Shown piece by piece: positions 13,368 to 17,140 of a stretch of 64,000 nt of DNA. This stretch comes from Deltaproteobacteria bacterium (lineage in GTDB: Bacteria > Desulfobacterota > DSM-4660 > Desulfatiglandales > Desulfatiglandaceae). The stretch is from the NCBI GenBank assembly GCA_021737785.1, contig JAIPDI010000001.1, positions 186,001 through 250,000 on the forward strand. The letters are read 5' to 3'. The notes beneath the pieces were generated by a model that was not told where the DNA came from, searched no databases, and worked only from the letters and a program-made list of their open reading frames with translations. The first letter of the stretch is position 1; each line of letters begins with the position of its first letter. A program made the translations under genes and the position numbers.

Positions 13368-13880
13368 ATGAAAAGAGACAAAAATGAGATCATGGATATG
13401 GCGTTTAGCATAGCCAAACAATATGAGATGACCTGCGGCGGATGCTCACAATGTACCCTATCGGGAATCTTAGATGCCCTGGGGATAAGAAATGACGACA
13501 TTTTCAAGGCGGCTACCGGTTTGGCGGACGGCGTCGGCCTGACAGGTGACGGCCATTGCGGCGCTCTTTCCGGCGGCGTCCTTGCTATCGGCTATTTTTT
13601 CGGGCGAGACAGAGGAGACTTCGACAATATAATGAAGTTGGTAAAAGCGAATCTTCTCTCGAAAAGACTGCATGATCGTTTTGTGGACAAATATGGGACC
13701 TGCAGATGTGCCGACTTGCAGACATCACTCTTGGGCCGTTTTTATAATCTGTATGACCCGGAGGAAATGAAGGCCGGCATCAAGGCCGGTTTGCTGGAGA
13801 CATGCTCCACGCTCGTAGGTGAAGTGGCAAGAATGACCACCGAAATAATTTTGGAAACACGGGAAAGGGATGCAGAATAA
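13368..13880 (+). CDS. C_GCAxxG_C_C family redox protein
   Basis: The 170-residue product has the cysteine pattern of PF09719: TCGGCSQC near residue 25, GHCGALSGG near residue 65, YGTCRC near 110 and a final ETCSTLVGE. Proteins of this family are found in anaerobes, are thought to be redox-active or metal-binding, and are often encoded near oxidoreductases. The exact function is not established. RBS AAGAAGG lies just before the ATG. A coding-like stretch in another frame follows directly after the stop. Confidence 0.85.
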   Translation: MKRDKNEIMDMAFSIAKQYEMTCGGCSQCTLSGILDALGIRNDDIFKAATGLADGVGLTGDGHCGALSGGVLAIGYFFGRDRGDFDNIMKLVKANLLSKRLHDRFVDKYGTCRCADLQTSLLGRFYNLYDPEEMKAGIKAGLLETCSTLVGEVARMTTEIILETRERDAE

Positions 13881-14146: not shown

Positions 14147-14881
14147 ATGCGATACGCCAAGATCACCCTCTATGTCGGCACCAGCGGTTATTCATATAAG
14201 GAATGGAAGGGGATCTTCTACCCGGATTCTATTCAGGCCGGCCAGATGCTGCATTTTTACGGTGAGCATTTCAAGACTGTCGAAATCAATAATACCTTCT
14301 ATCGCATGCCGACCATCCCTCTCTTGGAATCCTGGGCCGATGCGGTTCCTGCGGATTTCAAATTCGCGCTGAAAGCCATGCGCCGGATCACGCATGTCCA
14401 GAGACTTATATCCGTGGAACAGCCACTGGCGCATCTGCTCGAGATTACAAAAACGCTCAAAGATCGTCTGGGTCCGCTGTTGTTTCAATTACCACCCGAT
14501 TTTAAAAAAGATACGGATCGTTTGCGTGATTTTATGGATCTGTTCCCAGCGGAATGCCGAGTTGCTTTTGAATTCAGACATGCATCCTGGTTTGATGATG
14601 AAACGCTTAGACTCCTCCATGATCATGGGAATGCGCTGTGCATTTCCGATGCCGGAGAGGACTTTGATACTTCTTTCGCACTTTTTGGAGATTGGGGTTA
14701 TCTGCGGTTGAGACAACCCGGTTATAGTGATGCGGACCTGAAGACATGGATTAACCGGATTCGGGATCAACACTGGCGGGAAGCATACGTCTACTTTAAA
14801 CACGAAACAGAGGGCCCTCTGATTGCCGAAAGGTTTCAGGAGCTGGCCGATCCGGCCTACACCCCTCCCGGGCGCCGGTGA
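14147..14881 (+). CDS. DUF72 (YecE-like) family protein
   Basis: A 244-residue TIM-barrel protein with the family opening YVGTSGYSYKEWKGIFYP and the conserved EINNTFYRMP at about 47-56. FALKAMRRITH follows, then LGPLLFQLPPDFKKD, VAFEFRHASWF and the late YVYFKHETEG. DUF72 proteins are widespread, and their biochemical role is unresolved. The stop overlaps a possible GTG of the next gene, so the two may be translationally coupled. Confidence 0.92.
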   Translation: MRYAKITLYVGTSGYSYKEWKGIFYPDSIQAGQMLHFYGEHFKTVEINNTFYRMPTIPLLESWADAVPADFKFALKAMRRITHVQRLISVEQPLAHLLEITKTLKDRLGPLLFQLPPDFKKDTDRLRDFMDLFPAECRVAFEFRHASWFDDETLRLLHDHGNALCISDAGEDFDTSFALFGDWGYLRLRQPGYSDADLKTWINRIRDQHWREAYVYFKHETEGPLIAERFQELADPAYTPPGRR

Positions 14882-14937: not shown

Positions 14938-16050
14938 ATGCATATTACACTCATTGAACCGTTTTTTACCGGTTCTCACGCTGCTTGGGCGACAGGATAC
15001 GCTCGCCATAGTAAACACACTGTTGACATTCTGAGTCTTAGCGGGCACTTTTGGAAGTGGCGCATGCATGGAGGCGCTGTCACACTGGCACGGAAATTCT
15101 TGGCGTCCGACGCGGCACCGGATTTGTTGCTTGTTACCGACATGCTCGATCTGACAACTTTTCTGGCCTTGACGCGCCGAAAAACCGCCCACATCCCTGT
15201 GGTCCTCTATTTTCACGAAAATCAGATATGCTATCCCTGGTCGCCTACGGATCGAGATATTTTGCAGAAGCGCGATCACCATTATGGATTTATCAACTAT
15301 TGTTCTGCGCTGGCAGCAGATGCCGTGGTGTTCAACTCAGCATATCATTACAACGTCTTTTTCCGCGAATTGCCACGCTTTCTGAAACAGTTTCCTCCTC
15401 CTCATGAGGAAGGCACCGCAGACATCATCCGAACAAAAAGCAGCGTACTCCATCTGGGACTGGATCTGCAGAAATTTGATTATGCCGGGTCGCATCACAC
15501 GCGCGATGCAGACATGAATCAGGTCCCGCTCATTCTCTGGAATCATCGCTGGGAATATGATAAGAATCCCGAAGAGTTCTTCCGGGCCTTGTTCCTGCTT
15601 GATGAGCAAGGACTGGACTTTCGGGTGGCGATTCTTGGAAAATGTTTCGACCAACATCCCCCTATTTTTCGCACCACGCGCGAGAGGTTGCGGGACAAAA
15701 TCGTTCATTACGGATATGTCGAAGATTTTGCACACTATGCCCAGTGGCTGCAGGGTTCCGACATCGTCCCGGTGACATCGCACCAGGAGTTTTTCGGAGC
15801 AAGCCTTGTTGAAGCCGTATATTGCGGGGGGCACCCCATATTGCCGACGCGCCTGACCTATCCGGAGCTGATTCCGTATGAAACGTACCCTGACCTCTTT
15901 TATGAGACATTTGAGGAGCTGGTTGAGAAACTCACAGGGGCTCTGCACGGGATTGGCAAGATCCGGGAACAGTCTTTCCGTCACTGTGTTGAGCGATATT
16001 CCTGGCAGCATATGGCTCCGAAGTATGATAGGGTATTTGGTGCTGTCTGA
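14938..16050 (+). CDS. DUF3524 glycosyltransferase, tRNA-queuosine alpha-mannosyltransferase-like
   Basis: The N-terminus has EPFFTGSHAAWATGYARHS and SGHFWKWRMHGGAVTLARKF, which match the DUF3524 domain that defines animal QTMAN (GTDC1), the enzyme adding mannose to queuosine in tRNA-Asp. YFHENQICYPW and NSAYHYNVFF follow. The C-terminal half is a GT4-type GT-B domain (NHRWEYDKNPEEFFRAL, then SHQEFFGASLVEAVYCGGHPILP, ending ERYSW). I start at the ATG at 14938, after AGGAGGG, because the family motif begins there; a GTG at 14878 would add 20 unconserved residues. The length of 370 fits the family. Queuosine mannosylation in this bacterium is inference. Confidence 0.85.
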   Translation: MHITLIEPFFTGSHAAWATGYARHSKHTVDILSLSGHFWKWRMHGGAVTLARKFLASDAAPDLLLVTDMLDLTTFLALTRRKTAHIPVVLYFHENQICYPWSPTDRDILQKRDHHYGFINYCSALAADAVVFNSAYHYNVFFRELPRFLKQFPPPHEEGTADIIRTKSSVLHLGLDLQKFDYAGSHHTRDADMNQVPLILWNHRWEYDKNPEEFFRALFLLDEQGLDFRVAILGKCFDQHPPIFRTTRERLRDKIVHYGYVEDFAHYAQWLQGSDIVPVTSHQEFFGASLVEAVYCGGHPILPTRLTYPELIPYETYPDLFYETFEELVEKLTGALHGIGKIREQSFRHCVERYSWQHMAPKYDRVFGAV

Positions 16051-16102: not shown

Positions 16103-16166
16103 TGAAATGTTGGAAAAGTGGAGGAACGGGAAGAGATTCCATTACTCCATCCTTCCATTATTCCGG
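16103..16166. repeat. Octamer-type inverted repeat
   Basis: GAAATGTTGGAAAAGTGGAG-type units face CCATTACTCCATCCTTCCAT-type units. The pair is related to the inverted octamer repeats at 3174-3301. It lies in the 271-base gap before the kinase-like gene, which holds no other gene that I can see. Confidence 0.6.
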
Positions 16167-16321
16167 CCCGTTGTCCTCGCCGGGACTGTAGATCCTATTC
16201 AGGTCCACGGCTGCGCCCCGAACGACGCTTTTGCCAAAACCCCGGGACGCCTGTACGGCATCCGCCGGGAAGGTATGGTGCTCGGCCTGGATCACAACCC
16301 TGTTTGCATGGAGGAGAGACG

Positions 16322-17140
16322 ATGCCTTTGATTACCCTTACGGCCGGTATAGGATGCGGTATCACGGGTGTCGCCGGAGAGGTCGCCCGGCGACTTGAGA
16401 TCGATTTATTCGATGACGAACGTTTGCAAGAGGTGGCGGTGGACATGGAGTTTTCATCGCAGGACTTAAAGGCCTTCGATGTGAAGGCCCCGGGTCTGCT
16501 GGACCGGCTTTTTCGCCGCAGCCCCGAAATCTATGACGAACTGATGGCGGCCGTGATATACGAGGTTGCCCGGCGCGGCGACGGCGTCATTATCGGCCAT
16601 GGATCTTCTTTCTTTCTAAAAGATTTCAACTGCGCACTCCATGTTCGTCTGCGCGCTTCCGATGCATTCCGCACCCAGCGCGTTGCCTCCCAAAGAAAGA
16701 TCGAGCCCCAAACCGCCGCAAAACTCATTGCCAAGCGTGACACCGATCTCAAGGGATTTCTGCATTTTAACTTTAAAATCGACTGGGATGACCTTTCGTT
16801 GTACGATCTGGTGATCAATGTCGAAAAAATGGGGATTGACGCTGTCGCCGAAATGATCGTTCATCTGGCCGGAACGACCGCCATCGCTGCATGCAGCCTG
16901 AACGCGCAGCAAGCCATGGAGCGGCTGTCGCTCTTAAACAGGGTCGAGGCGGCCCTCAGGAAGGCAAACATCAACTTGCAGGAGCTTGAAATCGAGATTC
17001 CTGACCCCGGGGTGGTGAAACTGACCGGTTTGATCGACCCAATGCGAACCGTCGCCGGCGTGACCGAAGTGATTAGGCAAGTGCCCGGCGTGGCAAAGGT
17101 GATAAGCGACGCCAAAAGGCATCCGTTGCCCGAATTATGA
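16322..17140 (+). CDS. Cytidylate-kinase-like domain fused to a BON domain
   Basis: The 272-residue product starts at the ATG at 16322, after GGAGGAGAG. Residues 1-190 resemble the cytidylate-kinase-like family (PF13189): LTAGIGCGITGVAGEVARRL in place of the phosphate loop, FDDERLQEVA, GHGSSFFL, HVRLRASDAFRTQRV and DLVINVEKMG. The phosphate loop has no lysine, which is usual in this family. Residues about 200-272 form a BON domain (LNRVEAALRKANINLQELEI, VVKLTGLIDPMRTVAGVTEV, VPGVAKVISD). BON domains usually bind phospholipids or occur in envelope proteins. No signal peptide or membrane helix is seen, so the protein should be cytoplasmic. The fusion is unusual. Confidence 0.82.
   Translation: MPLITLTAGIGCGITGVAGEVARRLEIDLFDDERLQEVAVDMEFSSQDLKAFDVKAPGLLDRLFRRSPEIYDELMAAVIYEVARRGDGVIIGHGSSFFLKDFNCALHVRLRASDAFRTQRVASQRKIEPQTAAKLIAKRDTDLKGFLHFNFKIDWDDLSLYDLVINVEKMGIDAVAEMIVHLAGTTAIAACSLNAQQAMERLSLLNRVEAALRKANINLQELEIEIPDPGVVKLTGLIDPMRTVAGVTEVIRQVPGVAKVISDAKRHPLPEL

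Follow-up and report, generated by a model that had tools for sequence, protein, structure and literature searches.

The gene at positions 14938-16050 on the forward strand of the 64,000-nucleotide stretch of Deltaproteobacteria DNA that was analyzed (the window) most likely encodes a bacterial Q-tRNA glycosyltransferase of the QTMAN family. A probability of about 0.7 is assigned to the proposal that the protein is a retaining GT4-type enzyme that acts on queuosine-34 of at least one tRNA with a GUN anticodon and transfers a hexose, most likely mannose, onto one of the cyclopentenediol hydroxyls. In this pathway, TGT, QueA, and QueG would first build Q on the tRNA, and the QTMAN-family enzyme would then transfer the hexose to the cyclopentenediol hydroxyl from an NDP-sugar, which for mannose may be GDP-mannose. 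The supporting observations are the family, the fold, an invariant Arg/Lys pair in the donor half of the protein, TGT, QueA, and QueG in the same genome, and the co-occurrence of the family with Q-tRNA genes across the sampled genomes. We infer both the acceptor, Q in tRNA, and the sugar; tRNA-Asp is the target expected by analogy, and mannose is the sugar expected from the animal enzyme.

The window protein is a QTMAN-family member with a predicted GT-B fold

Translation of 14938-16050 (+) is free of stops and gives a 370-residue protein that begins MHITLIEPFFTGSH... and contains the signature motif SGHFWKWRMHGGAVTLA. The features of this region are as follows.

14938-16050, + strand: QTMAN-family glycosyltransferase gene, proposed Q-tRNA hexosyltransferase; 370 aa, with PF12038, a GT4 domain, and a GT-B model
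14944-15462, + strand: QTMAN_N domain, residues 3-175 (Pfam); invariant S13 H14, W39 W41 R42, and H93 E94 Q96
15526-15873, + strand: C-terminal GT4 donor-binding domain, approximately residues 197-312 (Pfam and alignment); invariant R204, W205, D208, K209, F286, and G287
14147-14881, + strand: DUF72 gene (PF01904, 202.5 bits), 56 bases upstream of the QTMAN gene on the same strand

A Pfam search placed PF12038 (QTMAN_N) on residues 3-175 with an E-value of 2.6e-58 and 197 bits against a cut-off of 25, a match far beyond chance. The preliminary description had assigned the product to the QTMAN/GTDC1 family, and this match over the N-terminal half of the protein bears the assignment out. Bacterial proteins of this kind fall within the existing Pfam model, and the window gene is an added member of a known family. 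Glycosyltransferase group 1 domains follow QTMAN_N at about residues 197-312 (PF00534, 2.4e-09; PF13692, 1.3e-06). An in-frame GTG lies upstream at 14878 and overlaps the stop of the DUF72 gene. The originally proposed ATG at 14938 was retained as the better start because, counted from it, residue 3 is where the Pfam match starts.

Conservation was examined in an alignment of 112 rows including the window protein, in which seven places had been fetched twice, leaving 105 distinct places. Trp39, Trp41, and Arg42 of the signature motif are invariant, and the other residues listed above for the QTMAN_N and donor halves are likewise invariant or invariant except for a gap. At position 284, 61 rows have Glu and 51 have Asp, and at position 292 Glu is present in 105 of the 112.

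A search of PDB sequences returned no close relative. The proteins found there were linked solely through the C-terminal half, and the best match was a 218-residue glycosyltransferase group 1 protein (E = 0.0011). An AlphaFold2 model built with an input alignment of 38 family sequences had a mean pLDDT of 92.4 and a pTM of 0.90. Foldseek returned 363 PDB matches to this model at E ≤ 0.001, and the best 50 aligned by VIA-align had Z-scores of 24-30 to retaining GT4-type enzymes. Among them are MshA, BshA, and sucrose-phosphate synthase, as well as two users of GDP-mannose, GDP-Man-bound PimA and PimB'. The model identifies the window protein as a predicted GT-B protein of the GT4 type; a fold held in common shows no function.

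The window's genome encodes TGT, QueA, and QueG

A search for queuosine genes had been set beforehand as a check on the proposed function, with the lack of a queuosine pathway as the outcome that would count against it. TGT (G000:C68:8438-9490, 1.7e-164; TIGR00430, 533 bits), QueA (G000:C68:7181-8230, 7.5e-125), and QueG (G000:C27:10292-11167, 2.3e-77, above cut-off) were all found in the window's own genome, G000. QueA directly precedes TGT on the same strand. No match to QueH was detected in this genome. Laboratory E. coli, included as a control, gave matches to TGT and QueA, and likewise to the ManC model TIGR01479. The TGT pocket reads GGLSVGE and is of the preQ1 type. With TGT, QueA, and QueG the cell should be able to complete Q on its own tRNA, and judged by these genes Q-tRNA should be available as a substrate in the same cell. 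The three genes are common in relatives that lack QTMAN as well (TGT in 22/22 genomes, QueA in 21/22, and QueG in 22/22), so the link runs one way.

QTMAN genes are scattered and show no conserved partner

The QTMAN domain was found in 10 of 61 genomes (the window's own plus 60 relatives) and is missing from both same-genus genomes, G001 and G002. The relatives' QTMAN proteins are 37-42% identical to the window protein and form a clade of their own in the tree (14/14 tips, repeats included and fragments left out). The window gene clusters with L012 (a Deltaproteobacteria MAG, 74%), L013 (an Anammoxibacter MAG, 70%), and L014 (a Deltaproteobacteria MAG, 72%). Since the window gene falls outside its relatives' clade and groups with these three, the distribution and the tree point to horizontal movement of the QTMAN gene. 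The G+C content of the gene (0.509) is inside the spread of the window. Carriage by phages or plasmids was considered and rejected, as searches of viral contigs, plasmids, and phages gave no match.

QTMAN relatives are encoded by at least 565 of at least 589 candidate stretches from GTDB contigs in many phyla. Eighty of these loci were kept for later tests; their titles name Neomarinimicrobiota, Chloroflexi, Bacteroidetes groups, Deltaproteobacteria, Omnitrophota, KSB1, Opitutales, and named Firmicutes-type strains. Where a title gave a genus alone, the group is the one to which we take that genus to belong. Three named strains that carry the family, Geomesophilobacter sediminis Red875 (L061), Peptoclostridium litorale DSM 5388 (L031), and Thermohalobacter berrensis CTT3 (L023), also encode QueA.

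The DUF72 gene upstream had been put forward as the partner of the QTMAN gene, a suggestion that the comparison of neighborhoods did not support, and it was rejected. DUF72 lies near QTMAN at 1 of 90 distinct places, the window's own, and no match was detected at the other 89. The 90 places correspond to 98 loci, some of them with short flanking sequence, which were searched by phmmer with one window sequence at E = 1e-8, a search that a strongly diverged DUF72 could escape. No operon of QTMAN with Q genes was seen in the same loci, and QueG lies within 4 kb of QTMAN in just two of the 98 (L094, 2.2 kb; L024, 3.7 kb). Recurring neighbors, judged by clustering and mostly without a family search, are confined to single lineages. 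The absence of a conserved partner and the patchy distribution among relatives fit an accessory, horizontally moved tailoring step.

Other neighbors were recorded. In the window, a C_GCAxxG_C_C redox-type protein (PF09719) is encoded at 13368-13880, upstream of the QTMAN gene, and a cytidylate-kinase-like protein (PF13189) at 16118-17140, downstream of it. In the latter frame as listed, the PF13189 domain does not begin until residue 72, and translation probably starts at a point downstream of the listed start. Opposite-strand genes that by eye resemble smpB and tyrS adjoin QTMAN in 17 loci, nearly all from Neomarinimicrobiota/Marinimicrobia (L017, L019, L020, L022, L025, L029, L030, L032-L035, L037, L038, L041-L043, and L052).

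QTMAN accompanies TGT in Chloroflexota with and without QueA

QueA was present in 46 of 50 QTMAN-containing genomes that were hand-picked from the 80 kept loci to span groups. The four in which it was not found (G063, G073, G082, and G104) are perhaps incomplete MAGs. Chloroflexota were examined because QueA is common elsewhere but variable in this phylum, to which the genome of L040, titled Ardenticatenia, belongs. QTMAN occurs in 28 and QueA in 157 of 251 Chloroflexota genomes. QueA is rarer in genomes with QTMAN (9/28) than in those without (148/223; Fisher p = 7e-4), and a plain model in which QTMAN needs QueA fails in this phylum. TGT was found in all 28 QTMAN-containing genomes, including the 19 that lack QueA, versus 7 of 17 controls with neither QTMAN nor QueA. 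The comparison of 19/19 with 7/17 gives a Fisher p of 7.7e-5 with kinship ignored, and the 17 controls are those listed among 75 genomes lacking both genes. Four of the 19 (G220, G236, G268, and G334) are essentially one chromosome-sized contig each, and the absence of QueA from these is therefore not due to missing contigs. Of these 19 genomes, 17 are closely related, with TGTs 65-97% identical to one another, which reduces the pattern to few independent events; G190 and G230 alone stand apart. QTMAN thus goes with Q-tRNA genes both where Q is synthesized de novo and where it is apparently scavenged.

The TGT pocket of QueA-less Chloroflexota suggests direct queuine insertion

The TGT pocket reads GG-SLG in 19/19 genomes with QTMAN and without QueA. 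It reads GGL[SA]VGE in 9/9 Chloroflexota with both genes and in the window's genome. A second pocket site is DEL in 17 of the 19. The TGTs L110 and L111 from QueA-less genomes are full TIGR00430 Tgt proteins above the cut-off, and alignment of L110 to solved TGTs places the pocket change at the same position. Quaiyum et al. (PMC11570991) describe queuine-salvaging TGTs as typically GG[LS][AS]G and preQ1 users as GGLAVG, and state that the pocket valine of the preQ1 type likely or possibly prevents queuine binding. GG-SLG is without that valine, yet it is not a literal match to GG[LS][AS]G. A TGT of the GG-SLG type also occurs in G120 (L163), a genome without QTMAN. Because the TGTs of the 19 QueA-less genomes lack the valine reported to block queuine, these bacteria probably take up queuine from outside and exchange it straight into tRNA, as happens in animals. 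If so, QTMAN in QueA-less Chloroflexota would work on the same Q-tRNA as elsewhere.

A second TGT-like protein (L144-L153) occurs in 10 Chloroflexota (G156, G188, G196, G220, G238, G268, G299, G306, G327, and G334). Its pocket sites read GGWPLD and DDC or DQC, and FDSA replaces FDCV. Nine of these genomes have QTMAN and lack QueA, and G238 has QueA. L147, the sole one tested, scored 302.9 bits against TIGR00430, just below the cut-off of 306.75. The second protein may act as a partner subunit or as a different 7-deazaguanine enzyme.

The donor sugar and alternative functions

The donor sugar is the weakest part of the proposal. The ManC nucleotidyltransferase (TIGR01479) was not found in the window's genome, in which the match covers the C-terminal cupin alone. 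Across the 80 QTMAN-containing genomes TIGR01479 matched in 60, comprising 2 of 18 QueA-less Chloroflexota (G299 left out) and 58 of the 62 others; GDP-mannose supply is judged here by TIGR01479 alone, and other types of GDP-mannose pyrophosphorylase exist. Six of the 58 matches are incomplete: the C-terminal isomerase-like part alone is present in G000, G062, and G077, and partial matches occur in G057, G073, and G089. The lack of a ManC nucleotidyltransferase match in the window's genome, and of any match in 16 of the 18 QueA-less Chloroflexota, favors a Q-tRNA glycosyltransferase that uses a different sugar, such as glucose, galactose, or GlcNAc. The matches in most of the remaining genomes and the GDP-mannose users among the fold matches speak for mannose. 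A related variant keeps the enzyme on a Q-tRNA other than the one modified by animal QTMAN. Two genomes titled Geomesophilobacter (G083) and Geobacter (G086) carry QTMAN together with GluQRS above its cut-off, and the target may differ there. Taken together, another sugar or another Q-tRNA is a serious possibility, although the odds are against it.

The cupin matched by TIGR01479 in the window's genome belongs to a fusion protein encoded at L165 (G000:C7:120000-125000), in which a mannose-6-phosphate-isomerase-type cupin (PF01050) is joined to a GT4 glycosyltransferase. The fusion adjoins a GH130 beta-1,4-mannooligosaccharide phosphorylase, so the genome shows mannose metabolism without a ManC nucleotidyltransferase match.

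GluQRS charges Q34 of tRNA-Asp. Mutual exclusivity of QTMAN and GluQRS, expected on the ground that both would cap Q34, was considered and not borne out, as G083 and G086 carry both. The TIGR03838 cut-off was passed in 3 of 80 genomes (34 with and 46 without QTMAN), namely G083, G086, and G107, all with QTMAN. The G107 match lies in a 475-residue frame and is probably an ordinary GluRS, and short frames in G087 and G091 contain candidates that score below the threshold. TIGR03838 was above cut-off in none of the 46 genomes without QTMAN, all relatives of the window's, a set in which no contrast is possible.

An exopolysaccharide or small-molecule glycosyltransferase that happens to carry a QTMAN_N domain is unlikely. 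The NCBIfam matches of the window protein to HpsP (23.5 bits) and EpsE (19 bits) lean in that direction, but both are weak and far below their cut-offs, and the PDB sequence matches are general glycosyltransferase group 1 proteins. Set against these are the full-length QTMAN_N match and the presence of TGT in every QTMAN-containing genome of a phylum in which TGT is variable. No recurring polysaccharide cluster was seen around the gene, either in the 98 loci, with neighbors judged mostly by clustering, or in 40 Chloroflexota loci. In the surroundings of QTMAN and TGT in Chloroflexota, any one neighbor recurs in at most 7 of 40 loci, from close relatives, and none pointed to Q.

Glycosylation of free queuine or the Q nucleoside for storage, export, or detoxification would equally explain the co-occurrence with Q genes, QueA-less genomes included, but is less probable still: the animal sugars sit on Q in tRNA, as PMC12518689 describes, and the Q-salvage enzyme Qng1 is rather depleted in QTMAN-containing Chloroflexota (2/28 versus 62/223 without QTMAN). 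The same counts led to rejection of Qng1 salvage as a link to QTMAN. Separately, Qng1/Q_salvage (PF10343) lies about 1 kb or less from tgt in two QueA-less Chloroflexota (G230:C19, L111; G141:C276, L123), which suggests a queuine-salvage gene pair.

Discussion

A QTMAN-family Q-tRNA glycosyltransferase in this bacterium would mean that sugar-decorated queuosine is probably not confined to animals, as far as gene content can tell. We propose tentatively, at somewhat less than even odds, that glycosylation of queuosine is a tRNA modification widely distributed among bacteria and spread by horizontal movement, and that some Chloroflexota follow an animal-like route in which scavenged queuine is inserted by an open-pocket TGT and then receives a QTMAN sugar cap. 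Such a route would be a bacterial counterpart, and perhaps the source, of the animal pathway. In QueA-less Chloroflexota, direct queuine salvage and Q glycosylation would then be combined for the first time among bacteria, to our knowledge. If bacteria make hexosyl-Q, simple genetics would give access to its role, animal QTMAN could be followed back to its origin, and microbes might supply queuine, or keep it back, in the form of sugar-capped Q.

Zhao et al., writing in Cell in 2023, reportedly tied manQ and galQ to translation rate and growth. A literature search of titles and abstract openings found no report of a bacterial QTMAN, of hexosyl-Q in bacteria, or of a QTMAN-TGT link in QueA-less Chloroflexota. 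In animals, alpha-mannose is attached to the allylic hydroxyl of Q in tRNA-Asp, and PMC12518689 calls QTMAN and QTGAL the only enzymes responsible for Q sugars in animals and calls the role of manQ and galQ unclear. The literature covered describes manQ and galQ as animal modifications. A signal at m/z 572.2 has been used for manQ/galQ (PMC11705514).

The closest known system is animal QTMAN (GTDC1), the tRNA-queuosine alpha-mannosyltransferase, which has the same order of PF12038 followed by a GT4 domain; Q-tRNA genes are present here too. Unlike the animal case, the bacterial host apparently makes Q itself with QueA and QueG, ManC was not found, and the tie between the two proteins is the Pfam family profile that they have in common. 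MshA, PimA/PimB', BshA, and sucrose-phosphate synthase share the GT-B fold over the full length (Z = 24-30 in the best 50 entries) but are only 10-19% identical to the window protein in those alignments. The TGTs of QTMAN-containing, QueA-less Chloroflexota resemble the queuine-salvaging TGT of the Chlamydia trachomatis type in lacking the preQ1-type valine; they differ in carrying GG-SLG in place of GG[LS][AS]G, and the TGT of the window's genome is of the ordinary preQ1 type. GluQRS (YadB), the glutamyl-queuosine tRNA-Asp synthetase, likewise tailors Q34 in bacteria. It belongs to an unrelated family with a different chemistry, and at least two genomes carry both GluQRS and QTMAN.
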